Below are positions 38,111 through 50,010 of a DNA stretch of 64,000 nucleotides, piece by piece. Source of the DNA: Methanomassiliicoccaceae archaeon DOK (lineage in GTDB: Archaea > Thermoplasmatota > Thermoplasmata > Methanomassiliicoccales > Methanomethylophilaceae); NCBI GenBank assembly GCA_009911715.1, contig CP047880.1, positions 930,001 through 994,000 on the forward strand, written 5' to 3'. The position numbers and the translations under genes were made by a program. Position 1 is the stretch's first letter, and the number at the start of each line of letters is the position of its first letter. Under the pieces are notes generated by a model. It worked only from the letters and a program-made list of their open reading frames with translations. It made no database searches and was not told the DNA's origin.

Positions 38111-39775
38111 TTAGAGGGATCCGAGCTGTCCGATGCTGATGTATCCGATGGAACCGGATGTCTGCTGGACGTTCTGGATGACGAGTCCGGTGGACTGGCA
38201 GGTCACAGCGTTCTGGGTGCAGACGTAGTTGGAGTCAACACCCTCCATGGCGGTGTCGAAGCAGTCACGGGTTCCGGATCCATCCTCACGGATGACGACC
38301 TGGATGGTCTGGTCGGGTCCTCCGACCTCACTCCAGTTGGTGATCTCGCCGCTGAAGATGGCGGCAACCTGTGCGGTGGTGAGTCCGTCGACTCCGTCGA
38401 CGTTGACGATGACGGCGACTCCGTCCTGACCGATCATGATGTCCTGGAGACCCTGAGCGGCTCCGCTCTCGGAAAGGTCACGGGAGAGCATTCCGATGTC
38501 GAACTCTCCAGAAAGGCAGCTGGACTCTCCGACTCCGGATCCTCCGCCCTGAACAGAGACGGTCATGAAGGGGTACTTCGCCATGTAAGCCTCTGCGAGC
38601 TTGGTGGCTGTCTCGGAAAGGGATGTGGATCCACCCATAACGATGGTGGTGTCACCGCTCTCTGAAGGAGCGGTCTCTTCGGTGAACTCGGTGAGCTTCA
38701 CGAACTCCTCACCGAGGATGGTCTGTCCCTCCTCGCTGGTGATCCAGCTCAGGAAGGCTGCGACGTTTCCAGTGGGCTCTCCGTCGGTGACGAGCACGAG
38801 GTTCCTGGAGATGGAGTAGGTTCCATTCAGGACGTTGTCCTCGGAAGCCACGACGCCGTCGAGAGTGACGGCATGAGCACCGGTAGAATCATCAGGCTCG
38901 AGAGCTCCGAGCTGTCCGATGCTGATGTATCCGATGGAACCGGATGTCTGCTGGACGTTCTGGATGACGAGTCCGGTGGACTGGCAGGTCACAGCGTTCT
39001 GGGTGCAGACGTAGTTGGAGTCAACACCCTCCATGGCGGTGTCGAAGCAGTCACGGGTTCCGGATCCATCCTCACGGATGACGACCTGGATGGTCTGGTC
39101 GGGTCCTCCGACCTCACTCCAGTTGGTGATCTCGCCGCTGAAGATGGCGGCAACCTGTGCGGTGGTGAGTCCGTCGACTCCGTCGACGTTGACGATGACG
39201 GCGACTCCGTCCTGACCGATCATGATGTCCTGGAGACCCTGAGCGGCTCCGCTCTCGGAAAGGTCACGGGAGAGCATTCCGATGTCGAACTCTCCAGAAA
39301 GGCAGCTGGACTCTCCGACTCCGGATCCTCCGCCCTGAACAGAGACGGTCATGAAGGGGTACTTCGCCATGTAAGCCTCTGCGAGCTTGGTGGCTGTCTC
39401 GGAAAGGGATGTGGATCCACCCATAACGATGGTGGTGTCACCGCTCTCTGAAGGAGCGGTCTCTTCGGTGAACTCGGTGAGCTTCACGAACTCCTCACCG
39501 AGGATGGTCTGTCCCTCCTCGCTGGTGATCCAGCTCAGGAAGGCTGCGACGTTTCCAGTGGGCTCTCCGTCGGTGACGAGCACGAGGTTCCTGGAGATGG
39601 AGTAGGTTCCATTCAGGACGTTGTCCTCGGAAGCCACGACGCCGTCGAGAGTGACGGCATGAGCAGATGAACTGTTGTTGTCTCCACCGTTGTTGCCGAG
39701 AGCCATATAGGCTGCAACGGCTGCAACGATAACGATGATGACCACAACGATTGCGGCTATTTTCTTTGTATCCAA
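38111..39775 (-). CDS. pstS: Phosphate-binding protein PstS with tandem, permuted duplication
   Basis: This 554-residue protein has an N-terminal membrane anchor (residues 6-25, IAAIVVVIIVIVAAVAAYMA). Two apparently identical 253-residue segments follow (38-290 and 300-552), joined by ALEPDDSTG. In usual PstS proteins, TIVMGGSTSLSETATKLAE opens the mature protein and AHAVTLDGVVASEDN...EEGQTILGEEFVKL closes it. Here each copy starts with the closing part, so the order is C-N-C-N: one normal PstS in the middle, flanked by half-domains. The start TTG at 39773-39775 follows GAGGTG. It ends in TAA. An assembly artefact cannot be excluded. Confidence 0.8.
   Translation of the reverse strand: MDTKKIAAIVVVIIVIVAAVAAYMALGNNGGDNNSSSAHAVTLDGVVASEDNVLNGTYSISRNLVLVTDGEPTGNVAAFLSWITSEEGQTILGEEFVKLTEFTEETAPSESGDTTIVMGGSTSLSETATKLAEAYMAKYPFMTVSVQGGGSGVGESSCLSGEFDIGMLSRDLSESGAAQGLQDIMIGQDGVAVIVNVDGVDGLTTAQVAAIFSGEITNWSEVGGPDQTIQVVIREDGSGTRDCFDTAMEGVDSNYVCTQNAVTCQSTGLVIQNVQQTSGSIGYISIGQLGALEPDDSTGAHAVTLDGVVASEDNVLNGTYSISRNLVLVTDGEPTGNVAAFLSWITSEEGQTILGEEFVKLTEFTEETAPSESGDTTIVMGGSTSLSETATKLAEAYMAKYPFMTVSVQGGGSGVGESSCLSGEFDIGMLSRDLSESGAAQGLQDIMIGQDGVAVIVNVDGVDGLTTAQVAAIFSGEITNWSEVGGPDQTIQVVIREDGSGTRDCFDTAMEGVDSNYVCTQNAVTCQSTGLVIQNVQQTSGSIGYISIGQLGSL
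38120..38878. repeat. 759-bp direct repeat, copy 1 (within pstS)
   Basis: This stretch recurs 786 bp further on with no difference that I could find, including synonymous positions. 786 is 262 codons, so the repeat is in frame. The 27 bp between the copies encode the ALEPDDSTG linker. Confidence 0.88.
38906..39664. repeat. 759-bp direct repeat, copy 2 (within pstS)
   Basis: This is the second copy. It ends (minus-strand sense: begins) directly after the SSS residues of the anchor segment at 39665. Such identity implies a very recent duplication, ongoing gene conversion, or misassembly. Confidence 0.88.
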
Positions 39776-40090
39776 GGTTGTGACACCTCAGTATTTGCGT
39801 AATCTAGGTCTGTGTATATAGTTACTCGAAATATTATATGAATTTATACATAGATATATATTCACTATATAATCATACATAAAATATGATTAACGAAACC
39901 TATTGAATACAATATCTGGCTACCGTTTTTCAATGCCGATGCATCCAACTCAATGTTGTTATTTATCAACGTTTTATTAATAATATAATACAAAGTGGAT
40001 CGATAAAACAACGACGAAAAAACATGGTTCTACTTTTCTATATATTACATATAGATACATATATAATACTGAAATTATCTTTATATCCCT
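39776..40090. promoter_or_regulatory. AT-rich divergent promoter of pst operon and AbrB-PhoU regulator
   Basis: This 315-bp spacer is far more AT-rich than the rest. On minus, ACTATATACAC (about 39815-39825) is the likely pstS TATA element. On plus, ATATATAATACTG (about 40059-40071) lies 25 bp before the regulator ATG. Related ATACATAGATATATATTC and TACATATAGATACATATA blocks occur near 39846-39863 and 40046-40064 and could be sites for the AbrB-PhoU protein. Confidence 0.55.
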
Positions 40091-41107
40091 ATGGTGCATC
40101 AATCCTCCGTGGACCTAAGAAGGATACAGATTACCGGCGGATCATCGTTCATGATCACACTCCCTAAAGATTGGGCCGACTCCGTAGGCCTGAAGAAGAA
40201 TGACACTGTCGGACTACAGCCGCAGCCCGACGGGAGCATGGTGATCTACCCCGGGGGAGAGCAGGCAGCCCTCGCCGGGTCCACCAAGATCATCGATGCT
40301 GACGGCATCACCGATCGCGACTACCTCTACAGACAGCTCGTGGGCGCATACATTGCGGGCCACGACGTCATCGAGCTCCGTTCCGAGGGCGAGCTGTCGA
40401 GCATGGTCGCGAGCACAGCCTCGTCTTTCACCCAGACCGCCATCGGCCTGGAGATCCTCGAGGAGAGCGAGAGCTTCATCGTCATAAAGGACCTCATGGA
40501 CCAGGGCGAGATCAAGCCCGCCAAGTCCGTCGAGAGGATGAAGGTTCTTGTCAGGAACATGCTGAACGACGTCCTCGACGCGCTGGAAGAGAAAAACCCG
40601 AAGATCATCGAGGCCATGTCGGAGAGGGACAGGGAGGTCGACAGGCTCGACTGGCTCATATCCCGTCAGGTCAGCATACACCAGAAGGACATCACCATCT
40701 CCCGCAGGATGGGCATGGACCTCTGCGAGATCACCCGCTGCGGAAGCGTCAGCAGATCCGTCGAGAGGATCGGCGACCACGCCGTCCTCCTCGCATCGAA
40801 CCTCAGACCGATCATAGAGGCAAAGCCCACCGAGGTCGACGACAGGATCCTTTCCACCGGAAGGGACGTGGTCACGCTCTTCACCGATTCGGTCGGGACA
40901 TGGACCGCCAAGAACATGGACGCCGCGAACAAGTGCATCGAGCGCGGCGAGAAGCTCGTCGAGAGGTCGAAGGAGATCGCCAACCTCGACGATGCCGTGG
41001 ACGAGAAGACGGCAATGGCCGCCGAGCTCATCTCCAGCAGCGTCAAGAGGGTCGCCGAGTACTCCATGGACATCGCCGAGATCGCCATCAACTCCGCGAT
41101 GGACTGA
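40091..41107 (+). CDS. AbrB-PhoU phosphate uptake regulator
   Basis: This 338-residue protein fuses a SpoVT/AbrB DNA-binding domain (residues about 8-50: RRIQITGGSSFMITLPKDWADSVGLKKNDTVGLQPQ) to a PhoU-like helical domain (about 110-335, with VSRSVERIGDHAVLLASNL and VKRVAEYSMDIAEIAINSA). This architecture is common in archaea and is thought to regulate phosphate genes, taking the place of the bacterial PhoR/PhoB pair. It is divergent to the pst operon and probably binds the AT-rich spacer. The start is leaderless or nearly so. Confidence 0.88.
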   Translation: MVHQSSVDLRRIQITGGSSFMITLPKDWADSVGLKKNDTVGLQPQPDGSMVIYPGGEQAALAGSTKIIDADGITDRDYLYRQLVGAYIAGHDVIELRSEGELSSMVASTASSFTQTAIGLEILEESESFIVIKDLMDQGEIKPAKSVERMKVLVRNMLNDVLDALEEKNPKIIEAMSERDREVDRLDWLISRQVSIHQKDITISRRMGMDLCEITRCGSVSRSVERIGDHAVLLASNLRPIIEAKPTEVDDRILSTGRDVVTLFTDSVGTWTAKNMDAANKCIERGEKLVERSKEIANLDDAVDEKTAMAAELISSSVKRVAEYSMDIAEIAINSAMD

Positions 41108-46489: not shown

Positions 46490-46518
46490 CCCTTTATTAC
46501 ACGTGCGCGTAATAAGGG
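46490..46518 (-). promoter_or_regulatory. Dyad in the leuS leader
   Basis: CCCTTATTAC-8-GTAATAAAGGG (minus strand) forms an almost perfect 10-bp stem with one bulge. It ends 7 bp before the leuS ATG. A TATA-like TTTTTATCAATATCC lies just upstream (about 46520-46534). It could be a repressor operator or an RNA stem that masks the start region. Confidence 0.5.
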
Positions 46519-46637
46519 ATATTGATAAAAAGGTTGAGATAGGGAAGATGGGGCAGGCACCTGAAGGCGAGGGCCCACCGTCAGATTACCCATCCTCGGC
46601 ATCCAGCCATCCCGGTCCGACGATGGTTCGGATCCAT

Positions 46638-46894
46638 GTCGGACATGTCCGACACGTAAGACGGATGACGTAAGACGTCGCTGTAAGACGCGGTAAGACG
46701 CGTCCGACTAGAACACATTTATCTACATCCGAAGCATACATCTTCATCGAAGACGAGTCTCTTCGCAGACACTTGTCCCGATTCAAGCATCCGTCTGACA
46801 GAGAAATGAGCCGGAAACAGTGATTTCCGACGGAAAATCTCTGTCAGACGTGTGTCTTACTTTTGTCGGACAAGCTTTAAATATCACGTAAGAC
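46638..46894. promoter_or_regulatory. Repeat- and dyad-rich control region of the RHH-ftsZ locus
   Basis: It contains a perfect palindrome GTCGGACATGTCCGAC (46638-46653). Four direct copies of GTAAGACG follow (46656-46663, 46670-46677, 46683-46690, 46693-46700), then an inverted GTCTTAC (46854-46860), a GTCGGACA half-palindrome (46865-46872) and GTAAGAC (46888-46894). The last three bracket the TATA-like CTTTAAATAT (46875-46884) of the ribbon-helix-helix gene. The arrangement fits cooperative binding and autoregulation by a ribbon-helix-helix protein. Confidence 0.6.
46791..46850. repeat. 13-bp perfect inverted repeat with nested hairpin
   Basis: CGTCTGACAGAGA (46791-46803) pairs perfectly with TCTCTGTCAGACG (46838-46850). 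Between them CGGAAA-CAGTGA-TTTCCG (46812-46829) makes a second stem. If transcribed it would be a stable 60-nt RNA; if not, it is a large operator. A TATA-like CACATTTATCTAC at about 46713-46725 could start an RNA at about 46745. Confidence 0.65.
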
Positions 46895-46958
46895 ATAATC
46901 TTGATTGCAAGCGGGAAGGGATGGGAAAAACTCTCTCTTGCAACAGGAAAGGATGGAA

Positions 46959-47321
46959 ATGACCGACGACGGAATCAAGATCACCCTCAGGATGGGAACC
47001 GAGGAGCTCCAGGCACTGGAGGACTTCATGGGTGAGCGCGATCTCGAGAACAAGTCGGTTTTCATCCGCGAGGCCATCAAGAGGTACATGGAGACATACG
47101 ACTCCCCTGCCGGACAGATGCCCTCGGAGGGCGGGATCTTCGTCCGCCTCAGCGACATCCACCTGGATGCACTCAACCAGCTGGTTCAGCGCGGAATGTG
47201 CCTGAACGAGGAGGAGTTCATCAGGAGGTGCGTCCTGGATAAGATCGTCCCGAAGACGGTCGAGGAGGAGGCCATCGAGGACTCCTTCAGGACTGCACAG
47301 AGGAATGCCGCGCTCAAGTGA
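46959..47321 (+). CDS. Tandem ribbon-helix-helix transcriptional regulator (CdrS-like)
   Basis: This 120-residue protein has two ribbon-helix-helix units: residues 5-46 (GIKITLRMGTEELQALEDFM ... VFIREAIKRYMETY) and 58-98 (GGIFVRLSDIHLDALNQLVQ ... EEFIRRCVLDKIV). In haloarchaea the RHH protein CdrS is encoded next to ftsZ2 and controls cell-division genes; this gene also precedes an FtsZ-family gene. The ATG at 46959 follows AGGAAAGG; one at 46953 is possible. The leader contains TTGCAAG (46905-46911) and CTTGCAA (46937-46943), which may fold over the ribosome-binding site. Likely autoregulated. Confidence 0.8.
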   Translation: MTDDGIKITLRMGTEELQALEDFMGERDLENKSVFIREAIKRYMETYDSPAGQMPSEGGIFVRLSDIHLDALNQLVQRGMCLNEEEFIRRCVLDKIVPKTVEEEAIEDSFRTAQRNAALK

Positions 47322-47433
47322 AGAAAAAAGGGATGGGAAATCGCATCCGTCAGCCGGATGGGAACGGCCACGGCCGAGGCTGATGGATGCTATTCAAACA
47401 CCTTAACGAAAGACGAGATCGAAGCAACGGGTG

Positions 47434-48138
47434 ATGCACATGACAGGGAACGACATTGAAATCGCGGTCGAGCCGCGCATAGCGGTCGTCGGCGTGGGCG
47501 GTGCGGGATGCAACGTCGTCAGCGCTTTCAGCGATTCGCTCTGCGCAGTGGACACCATCGCGATCAACACTGACAAGGACGCCCTCCACAAGACGGATGC
47601 GGACACCAAGATCTACATCTGCAAGGAGGTCCTGAAGGGCGAGGGAGCCCACGGGGACACCGTCCTCGGGAAGAAGTGCGCCGACATCCACAAGGAGGAG
47701 ATCAGGCAGGCACTCTCCGGACATGATGTCGTGTTCGTCATCGCGGGTCTCGGAGGCGGAACCGGAACAGGTGCCGCATCCGTCGTCATCGACGCTGCCA
47801 GGTCTCAGGGAATACTCACATTCGCCGTCGCGATCAGCCCCTTCTCCTTCGAGGGAAGGCGCAAGGAGATCGCCAGAGAGGGCTACAGGCACATCAGGGC
47901 CGTCTGCGAGCACACGATTCTCGTGGACAACGACCTGGTCCTCGCCAGGATGCCCGACCTCACCATGGACCGCGCCTTCGGCGAGGTCAACAAGAGCATC
48001 ATGAGGCACGTCATGGACTGCGTCGCAGCTGTCGAGGAGACGTTCGTGGACGAGATCTCCAGGCAGAGGCCGGTCAAGACCACAAGGGAGACCTCCAAGA
48101 AGGAGAAGTACCCCATAGAGCTCCTCATCAGCGCTTGA
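47434..48138 (+). CDS. ftsZ: Truncated FtsZ-family GTPase (GTP-binding domain only)
   Basis: This 234-residue tubulin-superfamily protein has loop T1 VGVGGAGCN (about 19-27), T2 AINTD (43-47), T4 GGGTGTG (107-113) and T5 SPFSFEGRR (135-143). The H7 helix is NDLVLARMPDLTMDRAFGEVNKSIM. It then ends in a basic tail (RQRPVKTTRETSKKEKYPIELLISA). The T7 loop (usually NxDxAD), which completes the GTPase site of the next subunit, and the C-terminal domain are missing. Two terminator hairpins follow, so it is not a frameshifted full gene. It may bind GTP, cap or regulate a full-length FtsZ. Start ATG 47434 or GTG 47431. Confidence 0.82.
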   Translation: MHMTGNDIEIAVEPRIAVVGVGGAGCNVVSAFSDSLCAVDTIAINTDKDALHKTDADTKIYICKEVLKGEGAHGDTVLGKKCADIHKEEIRQALSGHDVVFVIAGLGGGTGTGAASVVIDAARSQGILTFAVAISPFSFEGRRKEIAREGYRHIRAVCEHTILVDNDLVLARMPDLTMDRAFGEVNKSIMRHVMDCVAAVEETFVDEISRQRPVKTTRETSKKEKYPIELLISA

Positions 48139-48165
48139 AAAGGTCTATCACGCTTTTCTCCCCCA

Positions 48166-48188
48166 GCGGGAGGGCGTTGCCCTCCCGC
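48166..48188 (+). terminator. Terminator hairpin 1 after ftsZ-like gene
   Basis: GCGGGAGGGC-GTT-GCCCTCCCGC is a 10-bp perfect stem 27 bp after the stop. It is followed by ACATTTGTTTCC. Confidence 0.72.
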
Positions 48189-48204
48189 ACATTTGTTTCC
48201 TCTT

Positions 48205-48221
48205 GCGGGCCTCCGGCCCGC
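48205..48221 (+). terminator. Terminator hairpin 2 after ftsZ-like gene
   Basis: GCGGGCC-TCC-GGCCCGC is a 7-bp perfect stem. It is followed by a pyrimidine-rich tract (TCCTCTCTTCATTTC). Two stems in series make a strong stop. Confidence 0.65.
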
Positions 48222-48528
48222 CTCCTCTCTTCATTTCGTTGTGTTGGTGAGCACCTGCGTCGACAAGCATCTAGAATCCGGTTTTTTCCATAGAAAATCC
48301 CACACTGGAACGGATGCCCTTCCGATGCGTGTCGGACATCTGTGGGTCTGATAGGCAGTCACAGGGACTCGGGCGACTGGATGACCTCCGACTTCCAAGG
48401 AAGCCATGATGTACGAGAAGAACCAATTCGCCTCCCTGGAATCCGCAGTACCCCCAGCCAGCCTGTCGCACATCACAGATGAATGGTCGGATACGATGTG
48501 GCTTCCTGATACCGATCGAGGGAAAAAG
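48222..48528. other. Intergenic region before the nicotinate phosphoribosyltransferase gene
   Basis: This spacer of about 300 bp holds no clear gene. An AT-rich GGTTTTTTCCATAGAAAATCCC (about 48279-48300) is the only promoter-like stretch. An in-frame ATG at 48406 would add about 40 residues to the next protein; I reject it because the family starts at MSIFDGRNLSMM and a GAGGG site precedes that ATG. Confidence 0.4.
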
Positions 48529-50010
48529 ATGAGCATATTCGACGGACGCAACCTGTCAATGATGATGGACCTCTACGAGATGACCATGTCCAACGGATAC
48601 TTCCTGGAGGCCCACAGGGACGACATGGCGACGTTCGACGTCTTCTTCAGAAGGATACCGGACAGCGGGGGATACGCGATATTCGCCGGACTTGAGCAGA
48701 TAGTAGACTTCATCGAGCATATGCGCTTCGACGAAGCGGACATCGAGTACCTCAGGTCCCTGAAAATGTTCGACGACAGATTCCTGGATTACCTCAGCAA
48801 CTATCGTTTCACCGGGGACGTAGACGCCTTCGACGAGGGGACCATCATGTACCCCAATGAACCCGTCGTCACCGTCACCGCCCCCATGATAGACGCACAG
48901 CTCGTGGAGACTGCGATCCTGGCCCAGTTCAACCACCAGTCCCTCATCGCGACCAAGGCCCGCAGGATCGTCAGGGCGGCACAGGGGAGGGCGGTGTCCG
49001 ACTTCGGTGCCCGCAGGGCCCACAACATGGATGCCGCGGTCTACGGAGCCAGAGCGGCGTACATCGGCGGCGTCGTCGGCACTGCGACCGTCCTCTCGGG
49101 GCAGATGTTCGGCATCCCTGTCAGCGGGACGATGGCGCACAGCTGGGTGATGTACCACGACTCGGAGTTCGAGGCGTTCAGGAAATACGCCGAGATCTAC
49201 CCCGACGATACCGTGCTCCTGATTGACACCTATGACGTCCTCAGGTCGGGCACCCCCAACGCCATCAGATGCGCCAAGGAAGTGCTGGAGCCGATGGGCA
49301 AGAGGCTGAAGGGCGTCCGTCTGGACTCGGGAGACCTGGCCTATCTGACGAAGGAGGTCCGCAGGATGCTTGACGATGCCGGCCTGCAGGACTGCAGGAT
49401 CATAGCCTCCAACAGCCTCGACGAGTACTCCATCACATCAATCATCGATCAGGGTGCCCGCATCGACTCCTTCGGTGTCGGCGAGAGGCTGATCACCGCC
49501 AAGAGCGACCCCGTGCTGGGTGCCGTCTACAAGATAGCCGCCGTCAGGAAGGACGGAGTGAGCAGGCCGACCATCAAGGTCTCCGAGGCGGTCGAGAAGA
49601 TCACGAACCCGGGCAGGAAGAAGGTGTACCGTGTGTACGACGGCACCGGACACGCCGTTTGCGACCTCATCACATTGGAGGATGAGGAGGTCGACCTCAC
49701 GAAACCCTATAGGGCGGTCGATCCTGTAAAGCCCTGGAAGGAGATCTACCTCGTGGACTGCACGGCCAGGGAGCTCCTGCATCCCGTCATAAGGAATGGA
49801 AGACGCGTATCGCCGACGAGGGACCTGAAGGAGATCAGGGATTACGTGGACAGGCAGCTCAGGGAAGAGATATGGCAGGAGGAGCAGAGGTTCGAGAACC
49901 CCCACGTCCATCACATGGACATGAGTCCCGCTTACTACGAGTTCAAGATGGACCTGCTCAGGAAGGCCGACGAGTCCTCGGACCGATGCCGACGTCCGCG
50001 AGTGGGATGA
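48529..50010 (+). CDS. pncB: Nicotinate phosphoribosyltransferase
   Basis: This 493-residue enzyme makes nicotinate mononucleotide from nicotinate, PRPP and ATP in NAD salvage. It shows LYEMTMSNGYF at the N-terminus, FDVFFRRIPDSGGYAIFAGLEQ, SDFGARRAHNMDAAVYGARAAYIGG and GTMAHSWVMYHD (catalytic His region), then VRLDSGDLAYLTKEVR and SNSLDEYSI. The length is usual. It is convergent with iorB across a hairpin. Confidence 0.9.
   Translation: MSIFDGRNLSMMMDLYEMTMSNGYFLEAHRDDMATFDVFFRRIPDSGGYAIFAGLEQIVDFIEHMRFDEADIEYLRSLKMFDDRFLDYLSNYRFTGDVDAFDEGTIMYPNEPVVTVTAPMIDAQLVETAILAQFNHQSLIATKARRIVRAAQGRAVSDFGARRAHNMDAAVYGARAAYIGGVVGTATVLSGQMFGIPVSGTMAHSWVMYHDSEFEAFRKYAEIYPDDTVLLIDTYDVLRSGTPNAIRCAKEVLEPMGKRLKGVRLDSGDLAYLTKEVRRMLDDAGLQDCRIIASNSLDEYSITSIIDQGARIDSFGVGERLITAKSDPVLGAVYKIAAVRKDGVSRPTIKVSEAVEKITNPGRKKVYRVYDGTGHAVCDLITLEDEEVDLTKPYRAVDPVKPWKEIYLVDCTARELLHPVIRNGRRVSPTRDLKEIRDYVDRQLREEIWQEEQRFENPHVHHMDMSPAYYEFKMDLLRKADESSDRCRRPRVG

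Follow-up and report, generated by a model that had tools for sequence, protein, structure and literature searches.

An FtsZ active site is complete only with the T7 loop of the subunit that follows, and an FtsZ without this loop is regarded as incapable of GTP hydrolysis or cycling. The FtsZ partners known in archaea include, besides SepF, the PRC-barrel proteins. In haloarchaea, the gene of the ribbon-helix-helix (RHH) regulator CdrS lies directly upstream of ftsZ2, and CdrS is reported at 18 sites in Haloferax (PMC7439475, PMC8406309).

The window, by which we mean the whole 64-kb stretch of DNA that was analysed, contains an RHH gene followed by a gene for a short FtsZ without T7 loop (Table 1). 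We hold this description of the locus with very high confidence. The short FtsZ consists of the GTPase N-domain, helix H7, a linker and the C-terminal peptide PIELLISA. It ends as early as had been predicted from the sequence (234 residues): the ATG at 47440 gives 232 aa, and the alternative starts at 47434/47431 give 234-235 aa.

Table 1. Features of the RHH-short FtsZ locus (window positions)
Feature	Position	Strand	Basis or remark
Distal cluster of four GTAAGAC boxes	46653..46700	.	adjoins TGTCGGACA/TGTCCGACA inverted pair, 46637-46654
Proximal candidate operator box GTAAGACA	46853..46860	-	reads TGTCTTAC on +; box family conserved in 49 promoters
Palindromic candidate operator box TGTCGGACA	46864..46872	+	directly upstream of TATA box
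TATA box TTTAAATA of the RHH-ftsZ transcript	46876..46883	+	read from sequence; same place in orthologous promoters
Candidate operator box GTAAGACA	46888..46895	+	directly downstream of TATA box
RHH gene, 120 aa, two RHH units and C-terminal helix	46959..47321	+	profiles, sequence, model
Short FtsZ gene, 232 aa	47440..48138	+	ORF, profile search, alignment, AlphaFold model
Conserved C-terminal peptide P[ILM]xxxx[SN]A-stop of short FtsZ	48112..48135	+	orthologue alignment
First downstream stem, terminator-like	48166..48188	+	-23.0 kcal/mol, z -6.1
Second downstream stem, terminator-like	48205..48221	+	-14.5 kcal/mol, z -3.5

The best match of the short FtsZ was FtsZ (TIGR00065; PF00091 and PF12327) by both sequence and fold. 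PF00091 (Tubulin) matched residues 13-166 (1.8e-36; 126.7 bits against a cut-off of 33), and PF13809 (Tubulin_2 FtsZ-like) stayed below its cut-off (14.5 bits vs 27). TIGR00065 (NCBIfam ftsZ) aligned only over model positions 17-203 of 353 and scored 181.4 bits, short of the equivalog cut-off of 295.2. The AlphaFold model showed the FtsZ Rossmann fold, then a disordered linker, then the tail, and its best PDB match was FtsZ bound to GTP-gamma-S. N164 and the residues of loops T1, T4 and T5 showed no or almost no variation across 50 aligned orthologues, and H7 spans 32 residues (176-207) in the model, which bears out the original prediction that the GTP-binding loops and H7 are intact. The guanine-contact position of H7 is N, not D. 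From these residues, we infer that the short FtsZ binds GTP. It thus resembles FtsZ in the N-domain fold, T1-T5, H7, the linker and the short C-terminal peptide, but differs from it in lacking the T7 loop and the FtsZ_C domain. In full-length paralogues, H7 is followed by KPGLVNLDFNDL (T7) and FtsZ_C, where the short forms have a variable linker and a short tail instead. The aligned orthologues likewise contain H7 and the linker and then end, with no T7 loop (NxDxxD) in the short FtsZ. FtsZ_C (PF12327) gave no match in the whole window genome or in any aligned orthologue, and a six-frame search of the window genome showed no remnant of it.

Such a truncation could come from a frame error, an assembly error or a decaying pseudogene. 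Nothing was found that speaks for this explanation, and several observations refute it. Independent genomes share the end point of the short FtsZ: inspection of 50 loci in five families of the order showed the truncation to be alike in all, and none of these loci has a full-length FtsZ. Between close relatives, the short FtsZ had a dN/dS of 0.05-0.36 and the RHH gene one of 0.03-0.43, so that both genes are under purifying selection. No FtsZ_C remnant was found, and the two predicted terminator stems, which proved to be real (Table 1), come after it.

The pair is widely conserved. The short FtsZ was matched in 59 of 60 related genomes, and the RHH gene lies directly upstream of it on the same strand at 50/50 loci inspected. 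Short forms with the RHH gene were also found in families f8, f11, f16, f20, f24 and f26 of the class; two loci that show no RHH gene (L122 and L125) are both cut by contig ends. In families f1, f2, f3, f5, f6 and f8, the pair adjoins leuS. In FtsZ trees, all 33 short forms, taken from 11 families, were grouped together by a single branch, with support of 99/96 when 23 full-length FtsZ were included and 98/93 with 42, the latter set drawing also on other classes of the phylum. As these are unrooted trees in which some rows are long, a single origin of the short forms is their simplest reading rather than proven. The short forms attach on the RHH-linked (FtsZ2) side of the tree. In other classes of the phylum (about 80 genomes), the best matches listed have open frames of at least 338 aa, except one of 293 aa (G406). 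We concluded that the short FtsZ is one ancient paralogue family of the class Thermoplasmata, inherited vertically next to leuS, together with a tandem-RHH gene of its own. Phage carriage was also considered, and the 17 phage records found, none of which covers 80% of the query, were taken as host-type FtsZ.

The genes around the pair vary. In other families (L079, L081, L091 and others), a kinase-like gene of 354-366 aa, which looks like a member of the ATP-NAD kinase family, often lies 3' of the pair. In the window's genus, its place is taken by a nicotinate phosphoribosyltransferase-like gene (48406-50010 in the window). At loci of families f26 and f16 (L123, L126, L127, L130 and L131), two successive RHH-type genes precede the short ftsZ.

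The two RHH units predicted for the upstream gene were seen in its sequence, and the predicted helix pairs agree with them, but the structure model is of low confidence. Its best NCBIfam match was CdrS (NF058555), a weak match to a haloarchaeal model and below the cut-off (18 bits vs 100). In the 64-kb window, GTAAGACR matched seven times (1.7 expected per whole window), and six of the seven matches lie within 46656-46895. Across the order, GTNNGACA boxes stand on both sides of the TATA box of RHH promoters; in 49 promoters of 150 bp each, 142 were seen where 4 were expected. It is therefore likely from this arrangement that the RHH protein autoregulates its own promoter via the GTNNGACA boxes. 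The composite TGTCNGACA..GTNNGACA occurs at the RHH promoter and at only two other places in the window genome. As candidates for a wider RHH regulon, these two places, 1008719-1008751 (inside an ORF) and 963414, were taken as chance.

An RHH gene that comes first, with candidate autoregulation boxes in its promoter, is also what a toxin-antitoxin-like pair would show, with an RHH antitoxin and a partner that poisons FtsZ. We consider this very improbable, because the pair is near-universal and vertically inherited at one locus, because the RHH protein finds its best NCBIfam match, weak as it is, in the regulator CdrS and not in an antitoxin, and because Methanomethylophilaceae have no detectable full-length FtsZ as a target.

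The comparison with cdrS-ftsZ2 made in the original prediction was apt. The locus matches the published one (PMC7439475) in synteny, as in both an RHH gene immediately precedes ftsZ on the same strand, and the short forms fall on the FtsZ2 side of the tree. Unlike the haloarchaeal locus, it encodes two RHH units where CdrS is short, and the partner is truncated, without T7 loop and C-terminal domain, instead of a full FtsZ2. In contrast to the 18 sites reported for CdrS in Haloferax, the window genome has the composite box at hardly any place besides this promoter. A further difference is that other families have a separate RHH-FtsZ2-like pair with T7 loop alongside. In families f2, f3, f5 and f8, an RHH gene precedes an FtsZ2-like protein of 336-356 aa with a T7 loop. 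In the window's family, the counterpart of this pair is degraded; in G172 (L139/L167), which has an RHH gene upstream, the T7 loop reads VGMSKL. In family f13 (L128 and L132), an RHH gene is followed by an FtsZ-like protein with the altered T7 loop NINYSDL. It is possible that NINYSDL and VGMSKL are steps between catalytic and non-catalytic FtsZ.

Outside the window, an RHH-like frame overlaps a diverged tubulin-like protein of 272 aa (genome positions 39388-40203) at G000 C1:39087-40203 (L162:7087-8204); this is the degraded counterpart in the window genome. The gene lies directly downstream of the ribosomal L10/L12 genes. The protein has kept the C-terminal domain, but its T7 acids are gone. 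It is present in most members of the genus, evolves fast (32-89% identity), and was undetected in several good genomes (G003, G034 and G139). The sequences of both pairs suggest an ancestor with two RHH-FtsZ pairs, of which one was truncated and retained, and the other was complete and then eroded in Methanomethylophilaceae.

The diverged protein allows a split FtsZ to be imagined, in which the short form provides the GTP face, the tubulin-like protein the other face, and both form a heteropolymer. Its presence in most genus members, its C-terminal domain and the RHH-like frame before it agree with this idea. On the other hand, it lacks the T7 acids, it evolves fast, it was undetected in the three genomes named above, and the short form is already present in families with complete FtsZ sets. 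We therefore regard a split FtsZ as improbable.

Named relatives put the window in Methanomethylophilaceae, close to UBA71 and to ruminant or deer gut MAGs. A second, full-length ftsZ, which the original prediction proposed to look for, was not found in the window genome: PF00091 matched only the short FtsZ and the diverged tubulin-like protein, and FtsZ_C matched nothing. FtsZ_C was found in none of 36 Methanomethylophilaceae genomes, in comparison with 2-7 copies in each of 24/24 sister-family genomes. In 102 Methanomethylophilaceae genomes, no convincing full-length FtsZ was found, and FtsZ_C gave two weak matches, both to T7-degenerate forms. In the single-contig relative G139, the short form alone was seen. 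These searches showed that the short FtsZ is the only well-conserved FtsZ left among Methanomethylophilaceae sequences.

Known partners of FtsZ went undetected as well. SepF was undetected in 31/31 members of the window's genus and present in 24/24 sister-family genomes; PRC-barrel proteins were undetected in 31/31 members of the genus but present in 23/24 sister-family genomes and, within the family, in genera g3-g6. Both absences come from profile searches, which may miss fast-evolving forms. ESCRT-III was found in 0/60 genomes, with a weak control for the model (Sulfolobus scored below the cut-off). From the distribution of these genes across family, genus and sister families, FtsZ1 and FtsZ2 seem to have gone first and SepF and PRC-barrel proteins later, while the RHH-short FtsZ pair was retained. 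A survey (PMC11188069) describes some Thermoplasmata with FtsZ but without SepF or PRC-barrel proteins and others with none, and its passages on this point do not mention a truncated FtsZ.

Two side observations concern these searches. Four PRC-barrel matches contain one internal TGA (G039:C6:107277, G042:C10:30029, G051:C192:1470 and G033:C1:1426121) and probably overrun the stop. One Methanomethylophilaceae genome of genus g2 (G031; 96% complete, 180 contigs) had no match better than E 2.9e-4, and this gap covers the short FtsZ, the RHH gene, the second tubulin, SepF and PRC-barrel proteins alike; either assembly gaps or complete loss would account for it.

The original prediction had suggested that the short FtsZ caps filaments. 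For such capping or sequestering, the short form would place its GTP face on the exposed T7/C-domain face of a terminal FtsZ subunit. The nucleotide face alone is preserved in the short FtsZ, and families f2-f6 hold 2-7 full-length FtsZ beside it, both of which agree with capping. This cannot be its role here, however, because no convincing full-length FtsZ was found in the window genome or in the 102 genomes of the family, where the short form is nevertheless conserved. For the short FtsZ as a whole, we consider capping unlikely, though somewhat less so than a split FtsZ. The end blockers SulA and MciZ have folds unrelated to the short FtsZ. If it binds FtsZ, the short form would act like them on the T7/C-domain face, but unlike them it has no FtsZ target that we could find in Methanomethylophilaceae.

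The tail of the short FtsZ points to another mode of action. The motif P[ILM]xxxx[SN]A-stop is kept in most members of the window's genus after a linker whose sequence varies, and the pLDDT of the AlphaFold model climbs to 62-67 at this peptide, past the disordered linker. Other families have tails of their own. FtsZ itself binds SepF or FtsA via a comparable terminal peptide. An archaeal case of such binding has been described (PMC8178401). By analogy, the tail of the short FtsZ is likely to have a docking role.

Our best explanation is a T7-less FtsZ that serves as a GTP-bound adaptor or switch under RHH control, and as a whole we give it an even chance; the adaptor mechanism taken by itself we rate at even or slightly below. 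Having no T7 loop to offer to a neighbour, the short FtsZ would form no canonical filament and no complete active site. It would bind GTP without polymerising, as the GTP face is kept and the T7 face is gone, making head-to-tail stacking impossible. The GTP-bound protein would use its C-terminal peptide to dock on a partner, and the RHH protein would set its level via the boxes around the TATA box. In lineages with full-length FtsZ, the short form may modulate how the Z-ring assembles by binding to the T7 face that is exposed. In Methanomethylophilaceae, it may have retained a division or envelope role after the loss of FtsZ1 and FtsZ2. A GTP-loaded adaptor acting by its tail fits all lineages, whereas capping fits only those with FtsZ. 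Against our explanation count the N in place of D in H7, the limits of the profile searches for SepF and PRC-barrel proteins, at least one family genome (G031) that shows none of these genes, and the diverged tubulin-like protein, which could be a real partner. Of the division-control module originally proposed, the RHH/T7-less FtsZ module itself stands, conserved at 50/50 loci, and capping falls away here. A role of the module in division would follow from homology and the cdrS-ftsZ2 precedent (PMC7439475, PMC8406309).

We found no description of a T7-less archaeal FtsZ in the literature searched. A survey of the FtsZ/tubulin family excluded sequences with <60% alignment coverage (PMC9871819), and this filter may explain why the short FtsZ is absent from published descriptions. 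As no complete FtsZ was found in Methanomethylophilaceae, these archaea may divide by an unknown mechanism. We tentatively propose, as a reading with well under an even chance, that this family has lost the known machinery of FtsZ1 and FtsZ2, most fully in the window's genus, where SepF and PRC-barrel proteins would be gone too. With ESCRT-III unseen, a T7-less, GTP-binding FtsZ half under RHH control would here be the core of an undescribed, filament-free system of division or membrane remodelling. The short FtsZ is a natural FtsZ family that has been without T7 loop since deep in Thermoplasmata and is strongly selected. It raises two questions, one on the function of a GTP-binding FtsZ half and one on the mode of division of these gut methanogens.
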